From: Bacillota bacterium
Lineage (GTDB): Bacteria > Bacillota_A > Clostridia > Lutisporales > Lutisporaceae
Reading direction: 5' to 3'
Assembly (NCBI GenBank): GCA_022706865.1
Contig: JAKJBT010000071.1
Span: forward strand, 1-8,692
DNA length: 8,692 nucleotides
The position numbers were made by a program, and so were the translations under genes. The first letter of the stretch is position 1. The number at the start of each line of letters is the position of its first letter. Of this stretch, positions 857 through 7,958 are shown in pieces. The notes under the pieces are model-generated. The model saw nothing but the letters and a program-made list of their open reading frames with translations, ran no database searches and was not told the DNA's origin.

Positions 857-1951
857 CTATTCAGCCTTTGAACCGGTCGCTCCATGGCTCTTCATTATCT
901 TTTTCATTCCATCCGTAGCCTCGATCTTCCCATCGGGCATAACCCACACCGCCTCAACGTTGTCAAGGCTTTCCACAAGCTTACGGCTTTTGTCATAAGG
1001 CAGCAGAAATACGGTAGTGGACAAAAAATCTGCAAGCCCGGAATCCTGAGCAACTACCGTAACTGCACGGTAGTACTCCCCGGGCATGAGTGTATCCGGA
1101 TCAATCAAATGATGATAGGTCTTACCTCCAACCACATAATACCTTTGATAATCCCCACTGGTGACTACTGCAGCGTTATTGACAAATATCGTATCCAACA
1201 GGTTCTCTTCAACAGCTGCAAACATTTTGTCCGGATCCTGTATACCTATACCCCAGTAATCACGTAATCCGTCAAGTGGCTTTCCAAGTACGCGGATATT
1301 GCCTCCGGGACTTATGATGCCTGAAGTAAAGCCTTCCGACATAATTTCCTTGGCAACCAGCTCAGTGGCAAAGCCTTTTGCTATGGCTCCGACATCAAGG
1401 CGCATTACCTTATCGGCCAAAAATACCGTACTATTTGCTTCATCCACTATTACTTTATTTATGTCAGTATGATTCCTTGCTTCTTTAAGCTCTTCCAAAG
1501 GAGGCAGCTTAGCATTCACGGGGTCGCCCTCTCCCTGCTCGCGATAATCATGCCATATTGAAAGCACCGCACCCATTGCAATGTTGGTTCGCCCGCCTGT
1601 TTTTGCATGCCATTCCTTCGCAAACAGTATGAGATCTATTATTTCCTTATCCACCTTTACAGGTTTGATTCCTGCATTATCATTTATTGTCTTGATATTA
1701 TTGATACCTTCGTAATCATTATATATGTCATACAGCTTATGCAGTTCTTCAAAACGAGCGCGCATCTTCTCAAAATACTCCATAAATTCCTGCTCGTTTT
1801 TGTTATAGCCCACTACCTGAGTCAGCGTATCAAAAGTTCCGAAAAAGGTGTCACTGTATTTAGTTAATACTATTTCCGGAGTTTTCCCACATCCTGATAA
1901 AACCGATAGCAGAATAACCAATGTAATTACAATAACGGAAGTTTTTTTCAT
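857..1951 (-). CDS. apbE: FAD:protein FMN transferase, ApbE family lipoprotein
   Basis: The 364-residue product has a lipoprotein signal (MKKTSVIVITLVILLSVLSGC, Cys21), so it should be anchored outside the membrane. ApbE hallmarks are present in order: DVGAIAKGFATE at 186-197, SPGGNIRVLG at 214-223, SGDYQRYY at 265-272, HLIDPDTLMPG at 281-291, and ADFLSTTVFLL at 307-317, the region supplying Mg-binding residues in the family. Length is normal. Family knowledge: ApbE splits FAD and joins FMN by a phosphoester bond to a threonine of a target protein, using Mg2+. The start at 1951 is chosen because it begins the signal peptide and has AGGGTG a few bases upstream; the frame stays open to 2050, but that extension runs through a terminator. 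The gene directly upstream encodes a two-domain lipoprotein that is its probable substrate. It has its own promoter at 2012-1983. No Rnf or Nqr genes, the usual ApbE targets, are in the window. Confidence 0.96.
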   Translation of the reverse strand: MKKTSVIVITLVILLSVLSGCGKTPEIVLTKYSDTFFGTFDTLTQVVGYNKNEQEFMEYFEKMRARFEELHKLYDIYNDYEGINNIKTINDNAGIKPVKVDKEIIDLILFAKEWHAKTGGRTNIAMGAVLSIWHDYREQGEGDPVNAKLPPLEELKEARNHTDINKVIVDEANSTVFLADKVMRLDVGAIAKGFATELVAKEIMSEGFTSGIISPGGNIRVLGKPLDGLRDYWGIGIQDPDKMFAAVEENLLDTIFVNNAAVVTSGDYQRYYVVGGKTYHHLIDPDTLMPGEYYRAVTVVAQDSGLADFLSTTVFLLPYDKSRKLVESLDNVEAVWVMPDGKIEATDGMKKIMKSHGATGSKAE

Positions 1952-1982
1952 TCTTATCACCCTTAATTTTATTAGCAAAGCT

Positions 1983-2012
1983 ATTATAGCAAATAATCCA
2001 TGTTTTATGCAA
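1983..2012 (-). promoter_or_regulatory. Sigma-A-like promoter of apbE
   Basis: On the minus strand a perfect TATAAT (1988-1983) is preceded by TGC, giving an extended -10. A weak -35, TTGCAT (2012-2007), lies 18 bases upstream and overlaps the T-run of the preceding terminator. The predicted RNA start is near 1976, giving a leader of about 25 bases with AGGGTG before the ATG at 1951. The close packing suggests apbE is transcribed independently even when the upstream transcript stops. Confidence 0.65.
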
Positions 2013-2044
2013 AAAAAATCCCCCTCCAAATTTGGCGGGGGATT
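2011..2044 (-). terminator. Rho-independent terminator after the two-domain flavoprotein gene
   Basis: On the minus strand AATCCCCC (2044-2037) pairs with GGGGGATT (2024-2017), enclosing CCAAATTTGG, itself a palindrome that can extend the stem past one mismatch. The stem is followed by a run of eight T (2018-2011). It lies 25 bases after the stop codon at 2069, so it ends the lipoprotein transcript and separates it from apbE. Confidence 0.9.
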
Positions 2045-2068: not shown

Positions 2069-3184
2069 TTATTTTGCGTTTGCATAACCTTCCGCAACTG
2101 CTGCAATATAATCCTGAACAGATACGGTAACAGATGATGTAAGCTCAGGAACGTCAGGAACTGCAGGATGTGATGCGTCCTTGTTCTTTGTCTTCATAGC
2201 CTTTATTTCGTCAACAGTCTTGCCAACCATCCACTGTCCAAGGGCGTCAGCCTGCTGATACCATTCCTTGCCTATCGATGAAGCCTTGATCATTCCATAG
2301 CCTTCTTTAAGCTCTACCTTTGTCGGATATTCAGCTGCCTTATCTGCAGTTACTTTACCGGCATTGTCAAAAGTAATCTTAGTCTGTGCATTGTCTATGA
2401 TAGTTCCAACAACCTTGCCGTCTTTGTCAAAGGCAGTAGCTGCCATGACTGTATCAACCTGGGCGAAGGGAAGGACTTCTTTGCCTTCTGCATCTTTTCC
2501 AAGCCCCTTTGATTTACCTGTTGTTATTACATGTCCAAGTCCAACCTTTTCACCGCCTGCTACATCGACAGCAGTTTCATAAGCTTCTGCAACTGCTGCA
2601 ATGTATTCCTGTACAGATACGGTAACAGATGATGTAAGCTCAGGAATGTCAGGAACTGCAGGATGTGATGCATCCTTGTTCTTTGTCTTCATAGCCTTTA
2701 TTTCATCAACAGTCTTGCCAACCATCCACTGTCCAAGGGCGTCAGCCTGCTGATACCATTCTTTGCCTATTGATGAAGCCTTAATCATTCCATATTCTTC
2801 TTTAAGTTCTACCTTTGTCTTGCCTTCAGCTTTTATATCAGATGTAACCTGAAGAGCTGCATCAAAAGTAACCTTAGTCTGTGCATTGTCTATAGTCACT
2901 GAAACAACTTTTCCATCCTTGTCGAAGCCGACAGCAGCCATAACTGTGTCAACCTGGCCCAAAGGAAGAACTTCTTTGCCTTCTGCATCTTTTCCAAGAT
3001 CCTTTGATTTGGCAATTGTAGTAATATGTCCAAGACCTAATTTAACAATACTTCCGTTTTCTGCTGCGGGTGCTGCAGGTGCTGCCGGAGCTGCAGGTTC
3101 TGCCGGTGCTGCGGGTGCTGAACATCCAGCCAGTACTGAAAGTGCTAATGTCAGTACTAAAACGATTGATAATACTTTTTTCAT
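2069..3184 (-). CDS. Surface lipoprotein with two tandem FMN-acceptor-like domains (PplA-like)
   Basis: The 371-residue product has a lipoprotein signal with lipobox VLAGC (Cys21) and a flexible Ala/Pro linker (22-42). Two near-identical domains of 165-residue period follow (about 47-207 and 212-371). Each runs: LGH, GKDAEGKEVLP, VDTVMAA, FDKDGKVV, IDNAQTK, YGMIKASSIGKEWYQQADAL, VGKTVDEIKAMKTKNKDASH, and a final PELTSSVTVSVQ(E/D)YIAAVAE. The last block (T184-V191 and T349-V356) resembles the SGAT-type motif that carries covalent FMN in RnfG/NqrC proteins, followed by the same amphipathic helix; T188 and T353 would be the acceptors (inference by alignment). Family knowledge: Listeria PplA is a two-domain flavinylated lipoprotein used in extracellular electron transfer. 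The neighbour apbE supports flavinylation. The start at 3184 has GGAGGAGG six bases upstream; the gene has its own promoter and terminator. The FMN_bind assignment is by eye; an unrelated repeat lipoprotein is possible. Confidence 0.8.
   Translation of the reverse strand: MKKVLSIVLVLTLALSVLAGCSAPAAPAEPAAPAAPAAPAAENGSIVKLGLGHITTIAKSKDLGKDAEGKEVLPLGQVDTVMAAVGFDKDGKVVSVTIDNAQTKVTFDAALQVTSDIKAEGKTKVELKEEYGMIKASSIGKEWYQQADALGQWMVGKTVDEIKAMKTKNKDASHPAVPDIPELTSSVTVSVQEYIAAVAEAYETAVDVAGGEKVGLGHVITTGKSKGLGKDAEGKEVLPFAQVDTVMAATAFDKDGKVVGTIIDNAQTKITFDNAGKVTADKAAEYPTKVELKEGYGMIKASSIGKEWYQQADALGQWMVGKTVDEIKAMKTKNKDASHPAVPDVPELTSSVTVSVQDYIAAVAEGYANAK
2072..2551 (-). repeat. Second copy of intragenic 495-bp-period repeat (C-terminal domain)
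   Basis: This encodes residues 212-371 of the two-domain lipoprotein and aligns without gaps to bases 2567-3046 at a constant offset of 495. Over roughly 2112-2323 I count about eleven mismatches by eye, most of them at third codon positions, while the 5' half of the domain is more diverged (for example the linker after TFD). Confidence 0.9.
2567..3046 (-). repeat. First copy of intragenic 495-bp-period repeat (N-terminal domain)
   Basis: This encodes residues 47-206 of the lipoprotein and is the partner of 2072-2551. The near identity of DNA as well as protein in the C-terminal half of each domain indicates recent duplication or gene conversion. It is also a place where assembly or recombination could add or remove one domain. 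Confidence 0.9.
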
Positions 3185-3358: not shown

Positions 3359-3796
3359 TCACTCATTCAAATTTGAAGTGCAATGCGGGCATTTGCTTGC
3401 ATCAATATGTATTTCGCTGAAGCAGTACTTGCAGGACTTTGTCTGAACAGGGGCAGGTTCCTCCTTCTTTTTGGGAATACGGTTTATTTGTTTTATAATT
3501 ATAAATATTGAAAAAGCAACTATTAGAAAGTCTATGATATTGTTAATGAATAATCCGTAATTCAAGGTAGCGACACCTGCTTCCTTGGCTTCCGCCAAGG
3601 TTTTGAAGCTTCCGTCACCCAGGGTTATGAATAAATTGGAAAAGTCCAGCTTCCCAATCAGCAAGCCGACTAAAGGCATTATTATGTCATTAACCAACGA
3701 AGAGACTATTTTCCCGAAGGCTCCGCCGATTATTACACCAACCGCCAAATCTATTACATTTCCCTTCATTGCAAAAGCCTTAAACTCTTTCCACAT
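3359..3796 (-). CDS. mscL: Large-conductance mechanosensitive channel with C-terminal zinc ribbon
   Basis: The 145-residue protein starts [20 protein letters not shown], the classic MscL N-terminus with amphipathic helix S1 and the pore-lining TM1 (about 14-46). A periplasm-side loop (50-77) and TM2 (about 78-103) follow. Family knowledge: MscL is a homopentameric pore that opens under membrane tension to release solutes on osmotic downshock. The usual C-terminal helix is replaced after a charged linker (KKKEEPAP, 109-116) by a zinc ribbon: CKYC at 122-125 and CPHC at 136-139. Such ribbon tails occur in some Firmicutes MscL proteins, with unknown purpose. The ATG at 3796 is preferred over an in-frame GTG at 3814, since AGGAGG (3808-3803) lies six bases before the ATG and inside the longer version. 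The gene has its own promoter and terminator, so it is probably monocistronic. Confidence 0.96.
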
Positions 3797-3811
3797 AGAA
3801 ATCCTCCTTTT

Positions 3812-3831
3812 CACATATTACGAATAATGTG
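3812..3831 (-). other. Imperfect inverted repeat in the mscL leader
   Basis: CACAT and ATGTG form the outer arms of an imperfect hairpin with a central TTCG on the minus strand, a few bases upstream of the mscL ribosome binding site. Pairing inside the five outer pairs needs a bulge, so it is weak. It may modulate translation or be chance. Confidence 0.25.
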
Positions 3832-4546: not shown

Positions 4547-5372
4547 ACACCACACCTTCTTTCATAAATATATCCTTGTTCAAATTATACATGCTGTCAA
4601 AAAGCCTTACCTTGAACATTCCTATGCCTTCATTCGGCATTAAACATGCATTTGCAAGCTGTCCTGAAATTCCCATAGTCATTGTGCCTCCCACAGCCCC
4701 TGCCAAACAGCTCTCTGTCATGCTGCAGAAAGTGCCGACAAGGGATGAAGTCATACATCCCGCTCCGGTAATTTTTGAAAGCATTTCGTGTCCGTTTTCT
4801 ATTATATAAATGGTGCTTCCGTCTGAAACCAGATCCATCCTGCCTGTGGCAGCAACCACGCAATTTAAATCCTTCGCCAAACCCTGAACTATCCCCGCAG
4901 CATTATCAATATCCCAATTTGAGTCTACTCCGCAAGAACAGAGTTCTTTGCCTGCCAAATACATGATTTCCGAAATGTTCCCCCTGATTACATCGGGCTT
5001 GATATCTGAAAGTATCTTATAGCACATTTCTCTGCGAAAGGAAGTAACTCCGGCACCAACCGGATCAAAAATTACAGGAATCCTTATTTCCTTTGCCTTT
5101 TTGCCTGCCAGCAGCATTGACCTGAAATTATTGTTATCTGGTGTCCCCATATTTAGCACCAATGCTTTTGACATTGCCGCCACCTCTTCAACCTCCGAGG
5201 GGTCCTTTGCCATAATGGGAGAGCCTCCTATTGCAAGCACGGCATTGGCACTGTCATTCATAGTAACATAATTTGTTATATGATGGATTAAAGGCCTGTA
5301 TTCTTTTATCTTTGCCAGCAGCTCCGCTGCTTCTCTTTTAATTTCCAATTCCCGCTCCGCCTCCCTATTCAT
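4536..5372 (-). CDS. thiM: Hydroxyethylthiazole kinase
   Basis: ThiM phosphorylates 4-methyl-5-(2-hydroxyethyl)thiazole with ATP, making the thiazole phosphate used by ThiE. The 278-residue protein carries the family blocks HHITNYVTMNDSANAVLA (30-47) followed by IGGSPIMA (48-55), DPVGAG (103-108), GNISEI (131-136), ATGRMD (175-180) and the anion-hole TGAGCM (202-207), with C206 at the active-site position. The start ATG overlaps the thiD stop by eight bases (ATGAATAG). Only a weak ribosome binding site is visible inside thiD, which fits translational re-initiation after thiD. A highly charged N-terminal stretch (MNREAERELEIKREAAELL) precedes the conserved core and is slightly longer than in some homologues. 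Confidence 0.97.
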   Translation of the reverse strand: MNREAERELEIKREAAELLAKIKEYRPLIHHITNYVTMNDSANAVLAIGGSPIMAKDPSEVEEVAAMSKALVLNMGTPDNNNFRSMLLAGKKAKEIRIPVIFDPVGAGVTSFRREMCYKILSDIKPDVIRGNISEIMYLAGKELCSCGVDSNWDIDNAAGIVQGLAKDLNCVVAATGRMDLVSDGSTIYIIENGHEMLSKITGAGCMTSSLVGTFCSMTESCLAGAVGGTMTMGISGQLANACLMPNEGIGMFKVRLFDSMYNLNKDIFMKEGVVYAG

Positions 5373-6926: not shown

Positions 6927-7874
6927 CTAATATTGCCCCTCGGCATTTTTTCTGAATTTATCTGCCTCCTCGGACAGCTTGTAATCCGATTTCTCGAGGA
7001 TTTCCATATATCCGCCCAGAAGCTTCATCAGCTCACTGTCTGCATTGTCTTTTACAGCTTTGATGTATACTTCTTTTGCTTCAGGATTCATCAATTTTGT
7101 ATCATAGCTGAAAAGAGGAGTATTATTCAATCCGTAAAGCATGAAAGTAATATATTTTTTCTGCAGCTTCTTTATGCTTTCAATCTTGGCAGAGCTGCCA
7201 TGCTTCGCCATAAAGCCTTCCTGGACCAACGCCCTCTCAATTACCTCATCCCAGCCTATCACAAGAGCCGCATCCTTTGCAGGTACTTTATTGCTCTCTT
7301 CTGCCATTATATCAATATAATCCTTCATGTCCTCCCCTGCATAATAACTGAATCTCTTAAGAAACTCATAGTTAATAATGGGAAAGAACATGCCTTCCGC
7401 AGTTTCCACCTTATAGCCCATAGCCTTGGTTTTCTCAATAAGGCTTTTAACTTCAGCATCTTTAATGCTGTCAAGCTTGTTCAGATCGAATTCCGGTTTG
7501 TATGCATTGAACAAAGCTTCTTGTACGGCTGTGCTGTAATATTTCTCCTCCAGCTCCGGCAAATTGCTTTCCAGGGATTTTTCAAGTTCATCAAGCATTT
7601 TGGACGCATTTCCCTCGGAAACCTCTGTGATATTCTTATCCATGAACTCAATTATTGCATCAGGCTTGGGATTTCCCTCCACCAATGCCATAAACTCAGG
7701 AATTATCTTATCTTCATTGCTTTCCTTCACAGCAGGAGGGCTATTATCCTCAGCTTTGCTGCCTGTATTATCCTCCGCAGGTGATGTGCATCCTGCCAGC
7801 AATCCTGCACCCAGAAGCACAACAATGGACATAGCTATTGAAACAAATCTGAAAAAAGCTTTTTTATTATACAT
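6927..7874 (-). CDS. Unrecognised extracellular lipoprotein, mostly helical
   Basis: I do not recognise this family. The 315-residue product starts with a positively charged signal peptide (MYNKKAFFRFVSIAMSI) and a lipobox GLLAGC with Cys29, so it should be a membrane-anchored lipoprotein outside the cell. A Ser/Asp/Glu-rich linker (about 30-52) is followed by a charged, probably all-helical domain with no cysteines and no enzyme motif that I can see. Two patches with conserved-looking aromatic content are EGMFFPIINYEFLKRFSYYAGEDM in the middle (begin about residue 153) and YITFMLYGLNNTPLFSYDTKLM later. The start is uncertain: AAGGGAG (7897-7891) lies 16 bases before the ATG at 7874, further than normal; an in-frame ATT at 7880 would be ten bases away. 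The frame is open to a TTG at 7925, with no binding site. It lies 84 bases after the flavodiiron gene and just before the thi promoter; neither neighbour explains it. Confidence 0.85.
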   Translation of the reverse strand: MYNKKAFFRFVSIAMSIVVLLGAGLLAGCTSPAEDNTGSKAEDNSPPAVKESNEDKIIPEFMALVEGNPKPDAIIEFMDKNITEVSEGNASKMLDELEKSLESNLPELEEKYYSTAVQEALFNAYKPEFDLNKLDSIKDAEVKSLIEKTKAMGYKVETAEGMFFPIINYEFLKRFSYYAGEDMKDYIDIMAEESNKVPAKDAALVIGWDEVIERALVQEGFMAKHGSSAKIESIKKLQKKYITFMLYGLNNTPLFSYDTKLMNPEAKEVYIKAVKDNADSELMKLLGGYMEILEKSDYKLSEEADKFRKNAEGQY

Positions 7875-7958
7875 TTTAATTAATATAACTCTCCCTTCAA
7901 AGACACTGTATTTTTCCGTACACAATTTTGACGCAGCATCTTTGTGAAAAGTTCCGGG

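Follow-up and report, generated by a model that had tools for sequence, protein, structure and literature searches.

A putative two-flavin lipoprotein with a variant flavinylation motif and its own clade of ApbE in Clostridia

Listeria PplA has two flavinylation sites (T143 and T265), and the published flavinylation motif is Dxx[ST]GA[ST]. The FMN-bind2 domain, according to the accessible parts of its description (Huang, Meheust, Barquera and Light 2024, PMC11334425), is approximately 160 amino acids long, occurs in two or four copies in association with ApbE, and has insertions after beta1 and beta3; its paired sheets make a two-flavin unit described as double-flavinylated, and the only motifs given in those parts are [S/T]GA[S/T]-like. 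A stretch of 8,692 nucleotides from a Clostridia bacterium (contig JAKJBT010000071.1; the whole stretch is referred to here as the window) encodes a two-domain lipoprotein of 371 amino acids, PPL (2069..3184, minus strand), next to a lipoprotein of the flavin adenine dinucleotide (FAD):protein flavin mononucleotide (FMN) transferase family, ApbE (857..1954, minus strand). PPL is probably an equivalent of PplA, a carrier of two flavins whose flavinylation motif is a variant and whose transferase is matched to it.

Architecture, acceptor motif and transferase of PPL

At the N-terminus of PPL, a predicted signal sequence with the lipobox LAGC and lipidated Cys21 occupies residues 1-21 (3122..3184, minus strand, as are all features of the gene); it is followed by an Ala/Pro linker (residues 22-43, 3056..3121), domain 1 (residues 44-205, 2570..3055) and domain 2 (residues 206-371, 2072..2569). 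The repeat is visible in the DNA as a 300-nt unit of 87% identity with starts 495 nt (165 codons) apart, and in the protein as LTSSVTVSVQ(E/D)YIAAVAE at residues 183-201 and 348-366. Each domain contains the motif ELTSSVT (2621..2641 and 2126..2146), with T188 and T353 as the predicted FMN acceptors. An earlier reading made from the sequence only had the coordinates, the lipobox, the linker, the two 165-residue repeats and the numbering of both threonines right, as checks of the open reading frame (ORF), the protein and the DNA repeat confirmed. The two-domain structural model has a predicted template modelling score (pTM) of 0.84, with a predicted local distance difference test (pLDDT) score below 50 at residues 19-41, around the linker; strands are predicted at domain positions 8-16, 35-47 and 53-67 and a helix at 84-91, with long loops spanning 17-34 and 68-83.

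PPL has 719 homologues at E ≤ 1e-3 among the 7,997 candidates scored when 5.8 billion proteins were searched. The best 120 of the 719 were analyzed, and the alignment consists of the window protein and 119 of these 120, P0096 being left out for its long N-terminal extension. Both G20 and C21 of the lipobox are conserved in at least 90% of the 120 aligned rows. At position 188, 107 rows have T and 13 have S; at position 353 the counts are 106 and 14. Only seven of the 371 columns hold S and T exclusively, the minority letter of the other five appears at most four times, and no other column exchanges T and S to the degree of these two. Counting back from the acceptor, every row has E or D at position -6, position -3 is S in all 120 rows at site 1 and S (113), T (4) or A (3) at site 2, and position -1 is V, replaced by I in one site-1 row. 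Among 78 ORFs from 75 of 79 PPL loci (all in named genomes, drawn from the best 80 of 550 matched relatives), 77 have T and one has S as the acceptor at each site, and among 166 domain rows of a third search the acceptor is T in 150, S in six and M in one, with a gap in nine; these rows have D (81) or E (76) at position -6. A chance origin of the motif was rejected, since the acceptor T/S is kept across the three homologue sets.

Judged from the alignments, the PPL motif [DE]Lx[ST]xV[TS] keeps the register of Dxx[ST]GA[ST] exactly, and its GA pair is replaced (by SV in the window). PplA-type motifs also carry E at position -6 (E in 126, D in 115 and N in nine of 250 motifs from 120 proteins), so E is no departure in PPL and only the GA pair counts as one. 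ELTSSVT does not match the canonical motif at either site, although the S at position -3 and the acceptor Thr agree with it, and the absence of the GA pair (SSVT instead of SGAT) that the sequence-only reading had pointed out is borne out at both sites. An SxVT motif was not found in the accessible portions of PMC11334425, PMC8238504, PMC12052999, PMC9973259, PMC8906456, PMC4767422, PMC10339131, PMC7074142 or PMC8837199, and the string "ssvt" is absent from the main texts of PMC8238504, PMC12052999 and PMC7074142.

The apbE gene lies 114 nt downstream of PPL, and its product matches PF02424 (E 2.8e-66) and has a lipobox of its own (LSGC), as the sequence-only reading had held. Its best match in the PDB is Listeria FmnB (7esa, E 3.4e-37), and the active-site Ser, Arg, His, Asp and Thr are retained. 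In 72 of the 79 loci an apbE gene lies no more than 2.5 kb from PPL and in the same orientation; three loci end too early and four have none nearby (L022, L056, L067, and L030, where apbE follows another copy of PPL), genes lost to contig ends falling outside the coverage of the neighbor scans. PF02424 is present in all 19 PPL genomes searched. A quick, midpoint-rooted tree separates 77 ApbE sequences of PPL loci from 12 others, taken from loci for extracellular electron transfer (EET) and from second apbE genes, by a branch with an approximate likelihood ratio (SH-aLRT) support of 100. Residues typical of the PPL-linked clade (window numbering) are N124 in place of D (69 of 71 rows), S215 in place of N (65 of 71), Q270 in place of E (64 of 71) and L289-M290 in place of GY (67 of 71 each), ten other sequences serving for comparison and the 71 rows including one mislabelled sequence (L005_10, by the tree the second apbE of its locus). 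These changes are close to active-site residues: Arg262 and Glu261 of FmnB, called critical in the accessible text on that enzyme, align with residues 271 and 270 of the window ApbE. They may adapt the enzyme to the variant motif.

The departure from the GA pair and the absence of a Pfam match in PPL would be accounted for if an FMN_bind-like fold had lost its covalent flavin, leaving the motif as a relic or for another ligand and the neighboring ApbE to serve other proteins; this is very unlikely, because all 120 rows keep a hydroxyl residue at both acceptor sites, T and S substituting for each other, apbE travels with PPL and is clade-specific, and the catalytic residues of ApbE are in place. 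Very probably, PPL carries FMN on both T188 and T353.

Relation to FMN_bind proteins and domain modularity

On the FMN_bind profile the sequence-only reading needs correcting: PF04205 gives no match to PPL above the curated Pfam cut-off, and it is not among the 25 most frequent of 197 Pfam families for 120 A2 members. The structural comparison went partly its way. FMN_bind structures are ranked first by a structural aligner for both PPL models, with modest Z scores; Foldseek finds no match at E ≤ 0.001. Sequence searches of the PDB with PPL find no credible match, and hhalign comparisons are weak against PplA domains alone (P 0.074) and weak or uninformative against a broader FMN_bind set. A bridging protein (L108:3007-3528) matches PF04205 (1.4e-7, residues 73-170) and also the PPL profile (27 bits, residues 90-173; the E value for its genome is 4.5e-6), with the acceptor Thr aligned in register for both. 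This intermediate sequence connects PPL to FMN_bind by homology. Identification of PPL as a plain FMN_bind protein or as PplA was rejected, the profile and motif tests for these having failed.

Of the 120 proteins that the third search lists, 74 have one PPL domain, some of them being fragments, and 40 are single-domain proteins of 160-195 residues with a lipobox-like start; PPL domains also occur doubly. Same-frame fusions join a PPL domain to one canonical FMN_bind domain in L049 (by Pfam) and in L057, L062 and L078 (by an FMN_bind profile); this profile was partly seeded with the N-terminal domains of all four, so its matches to them are not independent, and L049 is the one checked with Pfam. 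L022 combines a PPL domain with a peptidoglycan-binding domain. Such modularity would suit an electron relay across the cell wall. In Sedimentibacter hydroxybenzoicus, a 788-residue open frame (L079:9566-11929) comprises one FMN_bind and four PPL domains, with five predicted flavin sites. A separate PPL-like family (L105, L106, L107, L116, L063, L072) is marked by W-x-K/E-Q and GxT signatures together with motifs of the DVV[AS]GAT type; the short stretches L105-L107 and L116 show no apbE next to it.

That PPL might be unrelated to FMN_bind, for instance an IscU-like alpha/beta lipoprotein that is beside apbE for another reason, is scarcely credible given that FMN_bind entries rank above IscU in both models, and given the bridging protein, the same-frame fusions and the relatives carrying DVVSGAT or DVVAGAT.

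Extracellular electron transfer loci and the possible role of PPL

No Ndh2, Eet or quinone genes were found among the nine window ORFs scanned, in agreement with the sequence-only reading; a partial ORF at the left end lies outside that scan, and its counterpart in the near-identical locus L001 is a LysM/M14 peptidase. L001 belongs to G001, a metagenome-assembled genome (MAG) of 1.8 Mb in which PPL and ApbE are 98% and 92% identical to those of the window and in the same order. G001 has a long Ndh2 with a DoxD-like tail (L097), a contig where eetB and hepT accompany a second apbE (L080), and an rnf cluster that includes an FMN_bind subunit (L081). The genome search for EET genes that had been proposed located, in this MAG, a long ndh2 and eetB away from PPL; of the description "reduced or dispersed module", dispersed seems to apply and reduced does not. 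The only FMN_bind matches in G001 are an RnfG-like protein and a 133-residue protein, so no canonical PplA is seen in this possibly incomplete MAG. The 7.3-kb contig L080, with the second apbE beside eetB and hepT, contains no pplA gene.

Searches for Ndh2, EetB and HepT by tblastn over the 79 PPL loci placed a long Ndh2 near PPL in four (L005, L007, L018, L020), matches of 26-27% (L010, L030) not being counted, and EetB in six (L005, L007, L018, L037, L058, L073). The layout of L007 and L018 is ndh2 divergent from PPL-apbE-apbE-eetB-hepT, and that of L005 is PPL-apbE-apbE, a gene on the opposite strand, then ndh2-eetB-hepT-ubiD-ubiA. Two Bacilli with canonical two-domain PplA (L094, whose homologs carry that name, and L093, which aligns with them) have hepT-eetB-ndh2 divergent from pplA-apbE-ubiA, and by this match of layout PPL occupies the place of pplA in some EET loci. 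A single-domain protein occupies that place in a third such Bacilli locus (L096).

The PPL profile matches 39 of 291 Clostridia genomes, eight of them weakly. Fifteen stretches from 14 of the 39, a selection biased to divergent ones, include nine with a full PPL, and EET-type genes adjoin it in seven of the nine (L112-L115, L117-L119): ndh2, hepT, eetB, NusG_II or ubiA in varying sets, with both ndh2 and hepT beside PPL in L113, L114, L118 and L119. A PPL-type apbE is present in seven of the nine, L118 being cut by a contig end and L111 having none in the stretch. PPL is rare in Bacilli (two of 398 genomes, the centre included). EetB (PF07456), which in Listeria serves FAD export for flavinylation according to the accessible text on it, is present in all 19 PPL genomes searched. 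Ten genomes with a long Ndh2 were also searched for FMN_bind, and in none of them does an open frame of 280-350 residues match it; one of the ten, G004, has a 156-residue FMN_bind lipoprotein in the place of pplA.

According to the proposed mechanism, PPL would be an exported, lipid-anchored electron carrier, and the adjacent ApbE, acting at the variant motif, would load each domain of approximately 165 residues with one FMN taken from FAD, at T188 and at T353. The two-flavin PPL would then do the job of PplA, drawing electrons from the membrane (from Ndh2 and quinone where present, possibly from Rnf or another donor elsewhere) and passing them to extracellular or wall-side acceptors. A PplA-like role in EET in the window organism is somewhat favored. 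A long Ndh2 is matched in 20 of 40 PPL genomes, the other half being without one, which weighs against a universal link to Ndh2. This half, together with the 75 of 79 close-locus stretches with no credible Ndh2, the rnf cluster of G001 and the occurrence of PF04205 proteins in every one of the 19 PPL genomes searched, would fit a PPL that is flavinylated at both sites and receives electrons from Rnf or another donor in the service of another extracytosolic reductase or of iron handling; such a role is unlikely, because the genome nearest to the window has long Ndh2, EetB and HepT and several relatives of PPL are inside EET loci.

The overall interpretation of PPL as a carrier of two flavins, already offered by the sequence-only reading, is supported by the conservation of the sites, the dedicated apbE, the ranking of FMN_bind structures, the bridging protein and the relatives in EET loci. 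A more tentative extension, more doubtful than not, is that PPL is paired with its ApbE in a flavinylation system insulated from the other, the clade enzyme reading [DE]Lx[ST]xV[TS] and not [ST]GA[ST], and the second ApbE the reverse, with two separately loaded carriers on one surface and PPL replacing PplA across clostridial EET. The co-divergence of the ApbE clade and the substitutions in its pocket are consistent with it. A survey that relies on PF04205 and [ST]GA[ST] to recognize flavinylated proteins would miss the PPL class, apparently the terminal carrier in some clostridial, and some Paenibacillus, electron transfer systems. If the interpretation is true, PPL widens the substrate rule of ApbE and may offer a second, orthogonal flavin tag, and it is a testable candidate for the missing protein in Clostridia that have ndh2 or eetB and no canonical PplA.

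The surrounding window and comparison with described systems

A hairpin followed by a T-run, resembling a terminator or attenuator, is located between PPL and apbE (2011..2044, minus strand, -20 kcal/mol, z -2.9); it was found by folding and is not listed by a pattern scan. Similar hairpins occur in 35 of 70 homologous PPL-apbE gaps versus 12 of 700 simple shuffles, and a CTCCCCC...GGGGGAG type with a T-run recurs, for example in L006, L009 and L019. The hairpin may set the ratio of carrier to enzyme, which would suit an abundant carrier and a sparse enzyme. A promoter scan was weak (11 sites, 8.6 expected).

The minus-strand order of the window is a flavodiiron-type C-terminal part, an unclassified lipoprotein, a thiamine pyrophosphate (TPP) riboswitch, thiW, thiD, thiM, thiE, mscL, PPL and apbE. 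A link of PPL to the upstream thiamine genes was rejected: when the 79 loci were searched by tblastn, L001 alone showed ThiE, ThiM, ThiD and ThiW. The thiD and thiM genes overlap in the window (5365-5372), unlike in L001, where a 408-residue gene of the cytosine/purine permease family (PF02133, L001:6520-7746) is between them. The 332-residue lipoprotein (6927-7925, minus strand) has no Pfam family; L001 has a homolog of 85% identity and tblastn finds none in the other 78 loci. MscL (3359-3814, minus strand) has a C-terminal CxxC...CxxC tail resembling a zinc ribbon (weak UPF0547 and DZR matches).

PPL resembles the FMN_bind proteins of PF04205 (RnfG, NqrC, CPE2226, CbFMN4) in the acceptor Thr before the C-terminal helix and, by the predicted models, perhaps in its fold, but differs in the lack of a profile match, the replaced GA pair and two insertions. 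Its ApbE resembles FmnB (PF02424, 7esa as best match, active-site residues retained) and differs in the clade-typical residues 124, 215, 270 and 289-290. The resemblance to FMN-bind2 extends to a domain of approximately 165 residues in two copies (four, with one FMN_bind domain, in L079) and to predicted long loops that fit insertions between beta1 and beta2 and between beta3 and alpha1; single-copy members, however, are common among the relatives of PPL, and the accessible FMN-bind2 section of PMC11334425 states no motif, operon partner or PplA-like role. To judge from the published description, the PPL domain would be of the FMN-bind2 type, so that both the type of domain and the notion of double flavinylation are already known; the sequence-only reading is to be corrected in that a domain type of approximately 160 residues has been published. 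What appears to be new, within the literature searched (Light et al. 2018, PMC6221200, is outside it and may already count such proteins as PplA), is a motif of the SxVT type served by an ApbE clade of its own, and the pplA place in some clostridial EET loci.

The window itself is not a PplA-type EET locus, since of ndh2, eetB, apbE and hepT only apbE adjoins PPL. PplA has 122 residues between its acceptor threonines, versus PPL domains of 165 residues; it retains [ST]GA[ST] where PPL has xV for GA; PF04205 is annotated in 120 of 120 listed PplA homologs and does not match the PPL of the window; and the ApbE of PPL is in a different clade. Like PplA of Listeria and Enterococcus, however, PPL is a two-domain lipoprotein beside apbE with two flavinylation sites (predicted in PPL) and E or D at motif position -6, and in some of its relatives the gene diverges from ndh2 within a locus arranged much like that of pplA.
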